DNA of 64,000 nucleotides. Source: Trinickia soli (GTDB lineage Bacteria > Pseudomonadota > Gammaproteobacteria > Burkholderiales > Burkholderiaceae). Within the stretch, counting starts at the first letter, position 1. Each line of letters opens with the position of its first letter. Under the pieces are notes generated by a model. It had not been told where the DNA came from, made no database searches, and was given only the letters and a program-made list of their open reading frames with translations. The position numbers and the translations under genes are program-made. Location of the stretch: positions 1-64,000 of the forward strand of contig NZ_PNYB01000007.1 of assembly GCF_002879855.1 (NCBI RefSeq). Reading direction: 5' to 3'. Below, piece after piece: positions 54,336 through 64,000 of this stretch.

Positions 54336-54734
54336 ATGACCGCTGGCCCATTTCCTGTTTCGCCTGCCATGGCCCGGCCCGAACAGATGATTCGCCATCC
54401 GCTCCGCGACCTCATCGCGGGGCTAATGCTGCTGCCAGTCAAGCGGTGCGGGGAACCCGACTACGCTGAAGCCGATTCCGATGTGCTGGTCAAAGTGACG
54501 GAGGCTGCCGACATGGCGATCCAGATCGTTCATGATGGGCTGGCCTCCATCGGGATACTGCACGCGTACTCCGCTCAGGAGATCGTTGACGGACAACTTC
54601 GTATCGAGCATGCCGTGGCACTGGGTCGATGGCAGATTGAACTGTGCGAGGTGCTTTCATATGCCTACGGGCTGAGGATTGATTGCCGCCGATACACCAC
54701 CGACTACGTCGCGCGGGAGGGCGGGCAGCAATGA
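54336..54734 (+). CDS. Small unknown protein upstream of the recombinase
   Basis: 132 residues, soluble, helical (SDVLVKVTEAADMAIQIVHDGLASIG). AAGGAGGAAGTC precedes ATG 54336. It overlaps the recombinase start by four bases (ATGA), so the two are coupled. No family recognised. Confidence 0.65.
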   Translation: MTAGPFPVSPAMARPEQMIRHPLRDLIAGLMLLPVKRCGEPDYAEADSDVLVKVTEAADMAIQIVHDGLASIGILHAYSAQEIVDGQLRIEHAVALGRWQIELCEVLSYAYGLRIDCRRYTTDYVAREGGQQ

Positions 54735-55324
54735 GCATCATTTCGTATCTGCGCGTGTCGACTGCCGGGCAGACAGTTGAAAACCAGCGACAGGCTATCG
54801 CAGCCGCTGGCTACGAGGTGGAAAGGGAGTTCGCAGACCAAGCGACGAGCGGCACGACTGCTGCAGACAGCCGCGGCGGTTGGGCCGCGTGCGCGCAATA
54901 TTTGCGGGACGGCGATACGCTCGTTGTGTACGCGCTCGACCGGCTCGGCCGCAGCACGGTTGATGTCCTTACAACCATCAATACGCTTGGCGCGCGCGGA
55001 GTGCGGCTGGTGATCCTGCAGCAGCAGTTCGATACCGGAACGCCGGCGGGCAAGCTGGCCTTGACCATGTTCGCGGCTTTCGCCGAGTTCGAGAACGGTA
55101 TTCGACGGGCTCGTCAGCGGGAAGGAATTGCCCGCGCACGCGCGGAAGGTGGAAAGTATCAAGGTCGTAAGCCGAAGCTCACGGTCGAGCAGCAGGCCGT
55201 GCTAAAGCAGCGCTTCGATGCGGGTGAGAACCGCAGCCAGCTTGCCCGTGACTTTGGCGTTGATCGAGTAACGGTCCACAGGTACTGCTCCGACGGCGCA
55301 GTTGGCCGAAGCGCAAAGCCTTAG
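54731..55324 (+). CDS. Serine recombinase (resolvase/invertase family)
   Basis: 197 residues. Catalytic Ser10 in ISYLRVSTAGQTVENQ; resolvase-domain motifs VVYALDRLGRST and GKLALTMFAAFAEFENGIRRARQREGI; C-terminal helix-turn-helix NRSQLARDFGVDRVTVHRY. Such enzymes invert or resolve DNA between short sites. No crossover sites were identified nearby. Supports the mobile nature of the region. Confidence 0.9.
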   Translation: MSIISYLRVSTAGQTVENQRQAIAAAGYEVEREFADQATSGTTAADSRGGWAACAQYLRDGDTLVVYALDRLGRSTVDVLTTINTLGARGVRLVILQQQFDTGTPAGKLALTMFAAFAEFENGIRRARQREGIARARAEGGKYQGRKPKLTVEQQAVLKQRFDAGENRSQLARDFGVDRVTVHRYCSDGAVGRSAKP

Positions 55325-55426: not shown

Positions 55427-56371
55427 ATGCGGATTTCCCCGATGTCCTTGCTAATGAACCGAAGGCGCCTTCCTACAGACCTGCCGCTACTCGAGCCTAC
55501 CGAGCTCGTTCATTTGCATCAGCCTAGCGGCAAGGCGATTTACGAGTGGCGAAGTGTCTCGGAGCCCGATTGGCGCTTGCTCAATGGGCCGTCCAAGGAG
55601 GCTCTGGATCTCGTCGAAGACGGGAGCGTTGACTGTGTCGTTACATCTCCGCCTTATTTCTGGCTTCGCGACTACAAGGTCGACGGGCAAATTGGTCTCG
55701 AAGATAGTGTCGAAGCGTATGTTGTCGCTATCAAGGAAATAATGCAGAAGGTTCGCGATAAGCTCAAGCCGGAGGGCGTGCTTTTTCTGAATCTTGGCGA
55801 TACATATTATTCCGGTAAGGGTGAGCCGCGCGGAAAAGACAAGAAAAGTTCGAAACGCCGATTTGGACTCAGGGCCGTCGATAGGAGTGGTGGCCTTGGT
55901 ATTGGCATAAAGCAGAAATCTGCAATCGGAATTCCCTGGCGTGTTGCCCTGGCGATGTGTCTAGATAATTGGACACTACGTTCGCCAATCGTATGGCACA
56001 GGGAGAATTGCCTAGTTGAGCCTACTGCCAAAGATCGGCCGAGCAGAAGCTACGAATTCGTTTTCATGTTCGTCAAGTCGCGGAAGTACTATTTTAATAA
56101 AGGCAATCTGCCCAACGATAGCTGGGCAGAGGATGTATGGAACATTGCAGCACGCCCAAACGTAAAGGGGTCACTCGATACCGCGCCATATCCCGACGAG
56201 CTTGTTGAACGGTGCTTGACCATTGGGTGCCCAACTGGAGGGACTGTGCTCGACCCATTTAACGGAAGCGGGACTACCATGCGGGTTGCGCTGAGCATGG
56301 GGCATCCGGCTATTGGTATTGACCTAAATAAAGATTTTTGTGAATACGTGAAGCGGACCCTACCAGCGTAG
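55427..56371 (+). CDS. Beta-class DNA methyltransferase (N4-cytosine or N6-adenine)
   Basis: 314-residue modification enzyme. Motif IV TSPPYFWLRDY (near 74) comes first and the SAM-binding motif I DPFNGSGTT (near 281) last, the order of the beta class; SPPY is most common in N4-cytosine enzymes but also occurs in N6-adenine ones. PSRSYEFVFMFVKSRKYYF is also typical. The start is uncertain: ATGs at 55427, 55442 and 55454 all lack a clear ribosome-binding site. AT-richer than the core. The ATPase gene starts five bases after it, so all three genes form one operon. Confidence 0.9.
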   Translation: MRISPMSLLMNRRRLPTDLPLLEPTELVHLHQPSGKAIYEWRSVSEPDWRLLNGPSKEALDLVEDGSVDCVVTSPPYFWLRDYKVDGQIGLEDSVEAYVVAIKEIMQKVRDKLKPEGVLFLNLGDTYYSGKGEPRGKDKKSSKRRFGLRAVDRSGGLGIGIKQKSAIGIPWRVALAMCLDNWTLRSPIVWHRENCLVEPTAKDRPSRSYEFVFMFVKSRKYYFNKGNLPNDSWAEDVWNIAARPNVKGSLDTAPYPDELVERCLTIGCPTGGTVLDPFNGSGTTMRVALSMGHPAIGIDLNKDFCEYVKRTLPA

Positions 56372-56376
56372 CATGT

Positions 56377-58239
56377 ATGTCGAAATACCTTTCGCTTGCA
56401 CAGATTCGAGATTCAATGGGGCGCCTGGGGCGCTTCCATATATTCTTTGCGACTACGTTCCTCGTACTGAAGCGGAACGAGGCGCCAGTAGGACAGACAA
56501 TGCGTCTATCTCTCGACGCAGAGAATCGAGAGCATCTTAAGCGCTATTTTCGCCTACATCCAAAGTCTGATTATTTTTTTACGCCATTCCAGACCAGGAA
56601 AAATGAAGGGCGTTGGCGTGAGCCTAAGTATCCGTCCACCTCTTTGCAAGCAATTAACACGCAAGGATTCGCGGGTGCGTTGCTGCATATAAAAAACGAG
56701 AAGGATTGGGGGTGGGAGACCGGCTATCTTGCATTTCTTGCGAGCAAATTGCCAAAGGGACAAAAACTGCCTCTGGTAGATTTGGCGATTTGGTTTGAGC
56801 GGGAAACACGGTGGGACGACGACGTCACGCGAGCTGACATCGCGCGGAAGTTCGTCGGAGATTTTCATCTGTCCGACGCTGAACTGAGCACCTTATTTGA
56901 TGCCACGGATCTATCCAGCCTAACAGAGGAAGCGGCTTTCGAATCGACTCCGGCGAAATGGGATCGTATTATTGAAGATTTTGGTATTCCAGTAGATGTG
57001 CCCAGAGAAGGTGGTGCGATTCTTCAGTTTCTTGAATTTTCGGGCATAGGTCCCACCAAAAAGCTGACCTTTATTCCAGCCTCCCGTCTAAATGTTATCA
57101 CCGGAGATAACGGTCTCGGGAAAACGTTTTTGCTTGATGTTGCGTGGTGGGCATTGACGCAGGAATGGGCGGAGGAAATGATCGTTCCGCTTGAACCTGT
57201 TGCTACCCCTCCTCAAATAAAGTTTTCGGTCGCCACGACGGCCGATGAGAAACCGGCTGTCACTGAATTTGACGCGAAAGGCTATCGGTGGAAATTGCTT
57301 TCGCCCCTTTCTACGGTTTCAGGCTTAGTTGTATATGCACGAGTGGATGGCTCATTTGCCGTCTGGGACCCAGCTAACCCCCAGCTTGTCAGCAAGGATG
57401 CATGCGCATCATTTACGCGCGAAGCGGTATGGAATGGGGGGGACGGAATTGAGGGATTACTTCGCGACTGGATTAGGTGGCAGACGAGAGAGAATGAGTT
57501 TCCTGTCTTTGAGACGTTCCAGAAGGTTATTCAACGTACAAAGCCGCCAGACATAGGAGAGCTCCGCGTGGGGTCGCCTACGCGAGTGCGCGGTGGATCG
57601 AAAGAGATACCTACGCTTGTCCATCCTTATGGACGTGTTCCGATTACCTATGAGTCAGCCGGCATCCGGCGAATTCTCACGCTCGCGTATTTGATCGTTT
57701 GGGCTTGGGAAGAGCATAAGTTGCGGGCGAAGGATGCCGGTCGGCGCGAGGAGCGTCAAATGGTGATTCTGCTTGATGAGGCAGAGGCGCATCTTCATCC
57801 CAAATGGCAGCGCGTTTTGCTGCGAGCCTTGCTTGGTATTGCTCAAGATCTTCATGAGGAACTGCGCATTCAATATCTTATTGCTACGCATTCCCCGATG
57901 GTGCTGGCGTCAGCCGAATCAGTGTGGGATGAGGAAATTGACCGTCTCTTCCATCTAAAGCTCAATGCAAATGGAAAGGTATCTTTTGAAGGGGTGCCAT
58001 TCGAACTTCGCGGAACAGCGGACTCCTGGCTTAAGTCGCCATCATTTGATAATTTGCATCCTGGATCAGAGGCGGCTGAAATAGCAATTCGCCAGGCGAA
58101 AAATTTAATATCTACACCGTCGCCAGATGTGCGTGAGATAGAGGTCGTAACGAACCATCTTGCTGATCATATCGCCGCGGATGACCCTTTTTGGCTGCGA
58201 TGGATCGTCTTTGCTACCGAGCACGGCGTTAAAATATGA
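56377..58239 (+). CDS. AAA (OLD/PtuA-like) ATPase with N-terminal extension
   Basis: 620 residues. The ATPase part starts near 215: Walker A ITGDNGLGKT (243-250), a signature-like YESAGIRRILTLA (426-437), Walker B VILLDEAEAHLHPKWQR (about 463-480) and switch His in IATHSPMV (504). This is the SMC/ABC-type AAA_15/AAA_21 group to which PtuA of Septu and OLD nucleases belong. No TOPRIM nuclease domain is present; the nuclease is the next gene. The first 200 residues have no recognised domain and may recognise DNA state or a partner. Coupled to the HNH gene by an ATGA overlap. Confidence 0.9.
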   Translation: MSKYLSLAQIRDSMGRLGRFHIFFATTFLVLKRNEAPVGQTMRLSLDAENREHLKRYFRLHPKSDYFFTPFQTRKNEGRWREPKYPSTSLQAINTQGFAGALLHIKNEKDWGWETGYLAFLASKLPKGQKLPLVDLAIWFERETRWDDDVTRADIARKFVGDFHLSDAELSTLFDATDLSSLTEEAAFESTPAKWDRIIEDFGIPVDVPREGGAILQFLEFSGIGPTKKLTFIPASRLNVITGDNGLGKTFLLDVAWWALTQEWAEEMIVPLEPVATPPQIKFSVATTADEKPAVTEFDAKGYRWKLLSPLSTVSGLVVYARVDGSFAVWDPANPQLVSKDACASFTREAVWNGGDGIEGLLRDWIRWQTRENEFPVFETFQKVIQRTKPPDIGELRVGSPTRVRGGSKEIPTLVHPYGRVPITYESAGIRRILTLAYLIVWAWEEHKLRAKDAGRREERQMVILLDEAEAHLHPKWQRVLLRALLGIAQDLHEELRIQYLIATHSPMVLASAESVWDEEIDRLFHLKLNANGKVSFEGVPFELRGTADSWLKSPSFDNLHPGSEAAEIAIRQAKNLISTPSPDVREIEVVTNHLADHIAADDPFWLRWIVFATEHGVKI

Positions 58240-58907
58240 TTCGTGTGAAGATGCCCGCCCCAGCACTTAATTACGACGGGGATGTTCGTGTGCCAGGCGA
58301 AGCCTTCCTTGCAACTAATCCACGGCCAACAGGGAAGGAATGGCGGAGCAATAAATACTGGTCAAAAATACATGACCCCCTCTATGACGCCCTGAGTGGC
58401 ATATGCTCGTATTGTGCATCTTTTACACCGAGACGCCAGAGTGCTTCATCAATAAATCATACCTCCATCGATCATTTCGTGCCAAAGACAAAGGATCCGT
58501 CCTTAGCTTACGAATGGTCAAATTTTCGTCTTTGTCGCGCTAAGCTTAATCATCGCAAGGGCGAGCATGACGATGTTCTAGATCCATATGTCCTCGCCGA
58601 AGGATGGTTCCGATTTAACTTTACGACTTTCGAACTGTATCCTGATCCCGATCTCTCAGACGACGACAAAAAGAAGGTAAATGCTACGATCGTGCGCTTT
58701 GAGTTGAATGAAGACGACAACCTTGTGCAGGAGCGACTCAGGGCCGTTTACGCCTATGCAGATGGAAAGTTGACTCGTGAACAACTGACGCGGCTATATC
58801 CGCTAATCGCCAGCGAAATGGTTGCTCAGGATTTTGATGTCAAGCATTTGCCTAGATTTCGCCGTTTGCTCGAAAACCCCAGAGTTAGAGATGGTCTCGG
58901 GATATAG
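58236..58907 (+). CDS. HNH endonuclease (PtuB-like partner of the ATPase)
   Basis: 223 residues. The HNH core lies early: CxxC in ICSYCAS (Cys57, Cys60), SIDHFVPK (Asp79-His80) and WSNFRLCRAKLNHRKGE (Asn96, His106). This zinc-stabilised beta-beta-alpha-metal fold cuts DNA. ATGA overlap with the ATPase gene means equal, coupled synthesis, as with PtuA/PtuB. The C-terminal half (about 120-223) is helical and may bind the ATPase. Confidence 0.9.
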   Translation: MIRVKMPAPALNYDGDVRVPGEAFLATNPRPTGKEWRSNKYWSKIHDPLYDALSGICSYCASFTPRRQSASSINHTSIDHFVPKTKDPSLAYEWSNFRLCRAKLNHRKGEHDDVLDPYVLAEGWFRFNFTTFELYPDPDLSDDDKKKVNATIVRFELNEDDNLVQERLRAVYAYADGKLTREQLTRLYPLIASEMVAQDFDVKHLPRFRRLLENPRVRDGLGI

Positions 58908-62556: not shown

Positions 62557-63474
62557 TCAGGTGTCAACGCGAAAGGTGGTCTGGCAGGACGGGCAGGTGG
62601 CGTCGACCAGTTTCCCGGCGGGTAGTCGGATTTTCTGCCGGCATGACGTGCACGCGACGATCACCTTGCCGTCGGTTGAATTCGATCGGGACGAGATCGA
62701 GGCAGGGATTGCGGCGCCCGGAGTGTCGGCGGAAGGTCGCGACGTCGTGGCTGGGTGCGCGGAAGATGCCCCGGGCGGGGTGGAGCGGTCGATCGCGTCC
62801 AGCTCCCGCTGACGATTGGCGGAAGCTGAGAGATAGGCCGACGATTTGGCAGCGCGACCGTCCAGGACGCCTTGGGCCACGATGGCGACGAGGAAACCCA
62901 GGAGGGCACCGCCGACCAGGCCGCCGAAAAACGTGGCGTTCGGGAAGCACGCGATCCCAAACCAGGACGCGACGCAGGACCAGCCGTAGACCTTGCCGAA
63001 GGACGGGAAGCATTTCGCCAGGCGTGGTCCGTAGCGCTGCTCCACCTCCATCCGCAATCCGATCTTGCGCTGCTCTTCGGCGCGGACCTGGCGTTCCACG
63101 TCCCGCTGCTGGCGCGCTTGCTCCTGGTGGGCTGCGTGCTGGCGCTCCTGCTCGACACGGGAGAACTCATCGCGGGCGAGGTCGCCGGCGGCGCGTTTGA
63201 CCGCGCTGATCGCCACCTCCCGCGAGCATCGAAACCACTCCTTGCCCTCGCGGCGCTTGCGCAGGCGCAGGTGGGCTTCCCGTTCGACGGCGCGCGCGTC
63301 CGGCACCCGCGTCGAGTATTCGACGACCACGGGGTGGGGCGAATGGGTCCCGTTGAGCTGGGCGGCTCGTTCTTCGGGCGTGCCGGTGGTGAAGCCGACC
63401 TTCACCAAACCTGGCATCGCCTTGTTCGACATCACGTAGACGAAACCTTCCACGGAGATCCCTGCGATCGGCAT
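62557..63474 (-). CDS. GIY-YIG - coiled coil - membrane - zinc-ribbon fusion protein
   Basis: 305 residues. N-terminal T5orf172/Mug113-type GIY-YIG domain (about 8-85): GFVYVMSNKAMPGLVKVGFTT, Arg36 region and Glu66. Then a charged coiled coil (about 100-148), two hydrophobic stretches (about 163-200) and a C-terminal MJ0042-like zinc ribbon (CTSC ... CPSC, about 275-305). A DNA-cutting fold tethered to the membrane is unusual. ATG 63474 keeps the whole GIY motif; the later in-frame ATG at 63432 would lose it. Overlaps the upstream gene's end. Confidence 0.75.
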   Translation of the reverse strand: MPIAGISVEGFVYVMSNKAMPGLVKVGFTTGTPEERAAQLNGTHSPHPVVVEYSTRVPDARAVEREAHLRLRKRREGKEWFRCSREVAISAVKRAAGDLARDEFSRVEQERQHAAHQEQARQQRDVERQVRAEEQRKIGLRMEVEQRYGPRLAKCFPSFGKVYGWSCVASWFGIACFPNATFFGGLVGGALLGFLVAIVAQGVLDGRAAKSSAYLSASANRQRELDAIDRSTPPGASSAHPATTSRPSADTPGAAIPASISSRSNSTDGKVIVACTSCRQKIRLPAGKLVDATCPSCQTTFRVDT

Positions 63475-64000
63475 GGTGAGCAGTGCACGCGGTCGGCCGC
63501 TTGCCAGATCGTGGCGAGCTGAGCGTGACCGTGCGAACGGGCCTGGACCGCTGACGCGAAAGCTGTGTGCAGTGGAGGTAGTACGGCGTTGTACGCGGCG
63601 ACGGCGAGCGACAGCGTTTTGCACGGTCCCATGTCGGGGATCACGTCGCCCACCTTGACGGTGCTTCCGTCCAGGCAGGTGCCACGCCACTGGGCGATGC
63701 GGGCGTTGAGGACGTTTTCCACTGAGGTCTCCTCGTTCTGGGCGCGGTCGAGGTTGTCGTCCACGATCGAGATCTGGGACTTGTCGACGCCCATCTGACC
63801 GACGATCACCCCGGCTTGGCCCTGCGCGACACCGTTGCCGGTAGCTTCGAGGCGCTGGGCGCGATCGAGCTTCGCCTGCTCAACCGTCACGGCGTGCTCG
63901 TAGTAGATCTGGGCCCGGGGCAGGCGTCCGAGATGCCCGTGCGCGCTCGCGACGAAGCTATTGATGCTGTCGGTGAGGGCCTTGACTTGGCGGTTGAGCT
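63432..64000 (-). CDS. Unknown protein, 5' end cut by the window edge
   Basis: The frame is open to the last base of the window, so the gene begins outside. The visible 189 codons include helical, charged sequence (DKSQISIVDDNLDRAQNEETSVENVLNARI) and a segment with two Cys (RGTCLDGSTVKVGDVIPDMGPCKTLS). The C-terminus overlaps the GIY-YIG gene start by 43 bases. No family recognised. Confidence 0.55.
   Translation of the reverse strand, partial: LNRQVKALTDSINSFVASAHGHLGRLPRAQIYYEHAVTVEQAKLDRAQRLEATGNGVAQGQAGVIVGQMGVDKSQISIVDDNLDRAQNEETSVENVLNARIAQWRGTCLDGSTVKVGDVIPDMGPCKTLSLAVAAYNAVLPPLHTAFASAVQARSHGHAQLATIWQAADRVHCSPCRSQGSPWKVSST

Follow-up and report, generated by a model that had tools for sequence, protein, structure and literature searches.

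The DNA analysed here, which we call the window, is a stretch of 64,000 nucleotides from Trinickia soli (contig NZ_PNYB01000007.1, positions 1 to 64,000). Our focus is a cluster at 55427-58907, where the list of open reading frames (ORFs) gives three genes on the plus strand in the order methyltransferase, ptuA, ptuB. An earlier note, made from the letters alone, had read these genes as a possible Septu-like restriction-modification hybrid; the ORFs lie at the positions it gave, with 5 bases between the methyltransferase and ptuA and a 4-base overlap between ptuA and ptuB. All three are open, and their catalytic motifs are intact.

The first gene (P0001, 55427..56371) encodes a beta-class amino DNA methyltransferase of 314 residues, which matches Pfam N6_N4_Mtase (PF01555, 5e-39) and the PADLOC model MTase_II (1.8e-71) and gives the operon the DNA methyltransferase that a restriction-modification system calls for. 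Its catalytic motif IV, TSPPY (residues 73-77, 55643..55657), is close to the N-terminus and its DPFNGSGTT motif close to the C-terminus, which is the order found in the beta class. SPPY suggests N4-cytosine over N6-adenine as the product. The Pfam match and the motif order bear out the beta-class SPPY enzyme described in the earlier note.

The second gene (P0002, 56377..58239) encodes an ABC-type ATPase of 620 residues, the long form of PtuA. The PADLOC profile PDLC00270 (E 1.6e-196) aligns residues 4-620 to its positions 2-627 of 627, and the nearest PDB relative by sequence is PtuA 8ee4 (5.3e-8). The ATPase motifs expected of Septu type I, all named in the earlier note, could be located: Walker A (GDNGLGKT, residue 243, 57103..57126), the signature (SAGIRR, 427), Walker B (DEAEAHLHP, 467, 57775..57801) and the switch His (ATHSP, 503). 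The third gene (P0003, 58236..58907) encodes PtuB, an HNH nuclease of 223 residues with the motif series IDHF ... WSNFR ... LNHRK, as the note had also proposed; PDLC00348 matches its residues 1-199 (E 3.8e-54), and the NCBIfam PtuB model NF041761 matches it at 1.1e-14, under that model's cut-off. The PtuB protein is thus encoded immediately 3' of ptuA, as in Septu type I. A search against defence models had been suggested as a check, and with both proteins matching PADLOC Septu models, PtuA plus PtuB here belongs, on sequence grounds, to Septu type I. The idea of an entirely new pair of effectors was rejected, since the PADLOC profiles cover both proteins almost end to end. A search of phages with P0002 gave no match at E 1e-5, and pattern-based scans of viral contigs found no relatives of the methyltransferase or PtuA.

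Relatives of PtuA were collected by a pattern-based scan of a species-genome collection, which is not a census and gave 26 loci. In the long form the first 210 residues are present; the short form lacks them. Genome samples added later brought the long form to 19 genomes, window included, of which 18 are assessable (G and L numbers are our handles for genomes and loci). Left out before counting were the relics L066 and L067, L069, which has about 120 bases of upstream sequence, and L013 and L026, in which ptuA starts too near a contig end to show its form and upstream sequence. An intact methyltransferase stands immediately 5' of long ptuA in 7 of the 18 genomes (the window, G483 as L049/L003, L006, L007, L008, L011 and L087), each time in the same orientation. 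L012 has a C-terminal methyltransferase piece at a contig end (1/18), and decayed methyltransferase remnants are still in place in L004 and L010 (2/18). By local beta-class and C5 profiles, no methyltransferase lies directly upstream in any of 16 assessable short-PtuA loci (of 18 that are short or unclear). Fisher's test gives 3.9e-4 for 10/18 vs 0/16 and 0.008 for the 7 intact cases, values that are not strict probabilities because the genomes are related.

The trio of methyltransferase, PtuA and PtuB is also encoded by cyanobacteria, by a Desulfobacterales genome and by a second member of the phylum to which the window belongs, which answers positively the earlier note's question of whether the genes stay together in unrelated genomes. 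In five relatives of the same lineage (cyanobacteria and one Desulfobacterales genome), the methyltransferase immediately 5' of ptuA is an orthologue 59-61% identical to the window's, vs 41-52% for PtuA and 36-49% for PtuB. Apart from the window's own genome, the sample of its phylum comprised 397 genomes, and none had a methyltransferase relative at E 1e-60. Because the trio is found in more than one phylum, decayed copies persist in place and the N-terminal domain described below is shared, we reject a chance neighbour, and these sequence comparisons make it unlikely that the methyltransferase is chance company.

Around the same PtuA loci we noticed several further genes. A methyltransferase lies 2.6 kb downstream of short-form L024 on the opposite strand, and in the long-form locus L072 a C5-like ORF lies about 2.8 kb away on the downstream side. 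A second, distinct beta-class methyltransferase (L012:5816-6790) lies 3.7 kb 3' of the Desulfobacterales ptuA, and an ORF with an NPPY motif (L091:9193-11280), by eye of large DNA methyltransferase type, about 1.8 kb 3' of the Chloroflexota long ptuA. Directly 5' of two short forms (L016:3163-5997, L018:5003-5959) is, by eye, either a large ATP-binding protein or a TIR-like protein, perhaps another kind of PtuAB sensor. Three of the 5 plasmid records with short PtuA were opened.

Relatives of the methyltransferase were also found in 155 plasmid records, 12 of which were opened. The best of them (47-55% identical) stand immediately before AAA+ ATPases, the window enzyme being 55% identical to that of L040, which precedes a McrB-like ATPase of Mycobacterium paragordonae. 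Pfam identifies two of the third genes, P0009 and P0011, as McrBC (PF10117) and matches nothing in P0007, the third gene on the plasmid of Mycobacterium paragordonae. In a more distant methyltransferase lineage (L081/L092, L093, L094), an ATPase and then a DUF2357 protein follow, the third protein of L092 combining DUF2357 with PD-(D/E)XK; the McrB-likeness of the ATPase P0022 rests on AAA matches under Pfam's cut-off and on its partner. A methyltransferase, an ATPase-type second gene and a third gene are found together in 7 of the 12 opened records, an XcyI/Cfr9I-type endonuclease partner in one and other partners in the remaining four. The second methyltransferase-PtuA-PtuB operon of the window's phylum, in G108 (L087), has a methyltransferase 69% identical to rhizobial L081 and 36% to the window's. 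By sequence, two methyltransferase lineages each pair with PtuAB in one place and with McrB-like partners in another.

The Klebsiella plasmid that carries the Cfr9I-annotated enzyme shows how Type II restriction-modification of the Cfr9I/XcyI kind compares: its beta-class enzyme is a relative of the window's methyltransferase at 37% identity, but its partner is one RE_XcyI endonuclease (PF09571, 7.1e-110), no ATPase being present. The Cfr9I site is CCCGGG, and 37% identity is too low to carry it over to the window's enzyme.

What joins the PtuAB and McrB-like partners appears to be the N-terminal domain of the ATPase. The earlier note had found nothing recognisable in the first 200 residues of PtuA; no Pfam model matches them, but the PADLOC PtuA profile spans them. 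We regard residues 1-210 (56377..57006) as a candidate DNA target-recognition domain. In hhalign comparisons, PtuA N-domains (11 rows) match McrB N-domains (4 rows) with a probability of 95.6, an E of 1.3e-8 and a score of 60.5, the two running collinear over 93 columns from their opening residues on; G483, whose ptuA is split over two contigs, is absent from the N-domain alignments. With 16 PtuA rows the score is 56.3, compared to 24.8 for the best of 200 column shuffles and 14.0 for the reversed control. The rhizobial set scores 47.9 over 178 columns (best of 100 shuffles, 21.9). Among the weaker results are the score of 31.1 for N-domains of a methyltransferase-free cyanobacterial clade and that of 19.3 between the two McrB N-domain sets, which do not match each other. 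We infer from these alignments that the N-domains of PtuA and of the ATPases in methyltransferase-linked McrBC-like operons are homologous, a relation that is clear for the rhizobial and alphaproteobacterial sets and weak for Mycobacterium. Such homology would fit target reading, a role that the earlier note had thought possible for this region.

The domain was also traced by profile searches. The PtuA N-domain alone matches in ten of 339 cyanobacterial genomes: two known methyltransferase-PtuAB operons, five long PtuAB without methyltransferase, two relics and one McrB-like protein. The last (L076:3713-6154, G626; E 2.2e-5; AAA_5 7.3e-22) lies immediately behind a C5-type methyltransferase with a PCQPFS motif, and its N-domain scores 44.7 over 50 columns against PtuA N-domains, a score with no shuffle control of its own. 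The two relics (L066, 1492-1748; L067, 1492-1772) retain 40-60 N-terminal residues of long PtuA joined directly to a PtuB piece, as by internal deletion. Downstream of L076, no McrC-like ORF of >=120 residues was noticed in the ORF list, and the locus may be broken. Run on 398 genomes from the phylum of the window, a mixed N-domain profile gave three matches (the window, G108 and a borderline McrB); in two further phyla, of 297 and 251 genomes, it gave one match each (the genome of L002, and L091), both with no upstream methyltransferase. L088 (G452; E 8.5e-4, hhalign score 29.1) was not counted as a carrier of the domain; its McrB-like ATPase is accompanied by what look by eye like a McrC gene and a convergent methyltransferase of C5 type. 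PDB sequence-profile searches with both N-domain sets gave no match at E up to 10, and no tblastn match to the isolated window N-domain was found in plasmids at E 1.

The AlphaFold2 (AF2) model of the N-domain is confident, with a predicted local distance difference test (pLDDT) value of 88.7. Its PDB fold matches are weak, mostly winged-helix DNA binders among the matches listed, and none of those listed is named as one of the methyl-reader folds SRA, EVE or HARE. The AF2 secondary structure offers a candidate recognition helix (residues 85-95, 56629..56661) followed by strands at 102-105 and 110-113. Identity to the window's helix is 36-64% in 10 genomes which bear the methyltransferase, once bore it or are sister to bearers, compared to 0-29% in 7 other genomes, and the helix is better conserved in methyltransferase-linked and methyltransferase-lost PtuA than in the methyltransferase-free clade.

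Our best reading, to which we give a probability of about one half, is that the operon is a Septu system gated by DNA modification. The methyltransferase would mark a short site in host DNA, and the N-domain of PtuA would read the same site when unmarked, much as R1 sets the specificity of the McrBC-like nuclease in LlaJI. Binding to unmarked phage or plasmid DNA would license the PtuA ATPase to activate the PtuB HNH nuclease, which would then either cut the invading DNA or stop the cell via tRNA cleavage. We infer DNA binding by the N-domain, reading of the methylated site and gating of PtuAB from sequence comparison. In LlaJI, a McrBC-like nuclease is reported to act as an ordinary restriction enzyme with R1 as its sole specificity subunit (PMC1459862).

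Several results weigh against modification gating, above all in the form of strict restriction. No methyltransferase lies upstream in 8 of the 18 long-PtuA genomes (L002, L005, L009, L070-L073 and L091). In the PtuA tree, L010 and the L004/L005 pair are sister to four methyltransferase-bearing cyanobacteria and L002 lies beside L012, from which it follows that the methyltransferase has been lost at least twice; no other result speaks as strongly against plain restriction as these losses with ptuA kept. In a restriction-modification system the methyltransferase should always accompany the nuclease, yet in L004, L005, L010 and L002 ptuA is open while the methyltransferase is decayed or absent. 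Given such absence or loss, cells can live with PtuAB alone. The hybrid proposed in the earlier note is partly supported, in that this is Septu with a methyltransferase, the trio recurs and the N-domain is shared; it is not supported in the form stated there, and cutting of unmarked DNA by PtuB is a conjecture. Known PtuAB effectors can act on tRNA instead of DNA. Finally, the Mycobacterium N-domain alone scores a weak 27.4 against PtuA N-domains, which slightly lowered our confidence.

Between L004 and L005, the ratio of nonsynonymous to synonymous change (dN/dS) is 0.094 in the motor, 0.44 in the N-domain and 0.56 in ptuB (19 changes), and the low motor value indicates that the motor at least is kept in use, under purifying selection. 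A methyltransferase orthologue was not found elsewhere in the draft genomes of L002, L004, L005 and L010, which missing contigs or other methylases could protect. In the methyltransferase-free clade, a distant methyltransferase relative of about 320 residues is encoded elsewhere in 4 of 6 genomes (G489, G567, G643 and G649; not G543 or G739), and it might protect in trans.

The effector end of the system admits an alternative that we consider unlikely, an abortive Septu with a DNA sensor. Here unmarked or phage-specific DNA would be sensed, PtuB would cut a host tRNA and so arrest growth, and the methyltransferase would serve as an antitoxin-like shield that prevents host DNA from setting off the sensor. 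Septu EcB88 is reported to cleave tRNA-Tyr, with its HNH residues needed for defence (PMC13096335), and retron-Eco7 PtuAB to deplete tRNA-Tyr, directly or indirectly (PMC11555353); the window PtuB belongs to the same HNH family. However, nicked DNA is reported as the substrate of another Septu and retron-Eco4 PtuAB is described as likely without a tRNA target (PMC11555353), and nothing seen in the window operon points to a tRNA target.

We are similarly doubtful about a reading as ordinary Septu, in which a phage trigger is sensed by the N-domain and the methyltransferase is an accessory, or a separately acting gene, in the same cassette. This would agree with the methyltransferase-free genomes, with its repeated loss while ptuA is retained, and with the fast evolution of the N-domain in the methyltransferase-free cyanobacterial clade, as might be seen in an arms-race sensor. 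The ratio of N-domain dN to motor dN is 3.6-19 in that clade (7 pairs), compared to 1.2-3.0 in methyltransferase-bearing (6 pairs), 2.9-3.4 in methyltransferase-lost (3) and 1.2-1.9 in mixed pairs (2). These ratios come from non-independent pairs, many of the dS values are above 1, and the reading of L069 and L072 began a few codons ahead of the start. In L069-L073, dN and dS of the N-domain are both several times the motor's, as if the domain had been swapped between alleles, and given the raised dS, recombination may contribute. Against this reading, chance linkage predicts neither an N-domain common to methyltransferase-linked McrBC-like ATPases nor two methyltransferase lineages beside both kinds of effector, and all 7 intact methyltransferases are upstream in one orientation. 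A defunct or decaying cassette with no present function in the window genome is very improbable: relatives have decayed (the methyltransferase remnants of L004 and L010, the ptuA-ptuB relics L066 and L067), but the three window ORFs are open with intact motifs.

Compared to known systems, the window operon is Septu type I by membership and appears, from its genes, to be a new variant by architecture, with modification gating as the proposed basis of its control. It shares with Septu type I both effector genes, their order and overlap, the catalytic motifs and the PADLOC matches, and differs in its 210-residue N-domain, which the short PtuA relatives lack, and in its upstream methyltransferase. 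With retron Ec78 and Septu type II it has in common the PtuA-PtuB effector families; PADLOC's type II adds a reverse transcriptase, not the window-type methyltransferase (PMC8565338), whereas none of the three clustered genes here encodes a reverse transcriptase (flanking ORFs were scanned in part) and the regulator would be DNA modification. LlaJI and other methyltransferase-associated McrBC systems likewise combine a methyltransferase, a specificity-setting McrB-like subunit and a separate nuclease subunit (PMC1459862). Some methyltransferase-McrBC-like operons have an ATPase N-domain homologous to that of the window PtuA, LlaJI R1 being likened by description. The window operon lacks the McrB-type AAA+ GTPase and the PD-(D/E)XK McrC, so that the N-domain and methyltransferase alone are shared: its motor is the ABC-type PtuA, its nuclease the HNH PtuB, and it has one amino-methyltransferase, compared to two 5mC enzymes in LlaJI.

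The available part of the PADLOC survey of Septu neighbours describes the reverse-transcriptase variant and a frequent neighbour, Hma (helicase, m5C methyltransferase, ATPase), and the trio was not found among those neighbours (PMC8565338). A literature search for Septu or PtuAB with methyltransferase, HNH, McrBC or restriction-modification did not find the trio in titles or the starts of abstracts of open papers (preprints apart). A census of McrBC notes frequent methyltransferase association and defers its treatment (PMC11090510), and methylases are described beside ABC ATPase cores of a different clade in a survey of Dnd-type systems (PMC10853773).

A broader proposal, which we hold tentatively and think somewhat less than evenly probable, is that one swappable target-reading domain with its cognate methyltransferase serves both McrBC (AAA+ GTPase, PD-(D/E)XK) and Septu (ABC ATPase, HNH). 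By gaining both, a phage-triggered Septu would turn to self/non-self discrimination, and loss of the methylase would turn it back into a fast-evolving sensor. If so, a specificity module of methyltransferase-linked McrBC systems could move between nuclease engines that are unrelated, and the methylase might then serve to predict specificity. The available parts of the cited Septu literature were not found to state what molecular event triggers Septu; should a Septu subtype encode a readable self-mark of its own, that trigger would become directly testable via methylation.

The operon has a GC content of 0.49-0.57 over four 1-kb steps, and the majority of the remaining window steps lie at 0.60-0.69; a few others are likewise at 0.54-0.59 (about 1-3 kb, 50-53 kb and 59-60 kb). 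Just upstream, at 54731..55324 on the plus strand, is a small serine recombinase of the resolvase/invertase type (Pfam Resolvase 3.6e-40 and HTH_7), which we treat as a neighbour of the system. The AT-richer region beside a serine recombinase reported in the earlier note was thus recovered. A recombinase is annotated near the methyltransferase in 8 of the 12 opened plasmid records (L041, L042, L043, L047, L092, L093, L094 and L095). A few kilobases 3' of the operon, on the minus strand at 62557-63498, the window also encodes a T5orf172/MUG113 domain protein.

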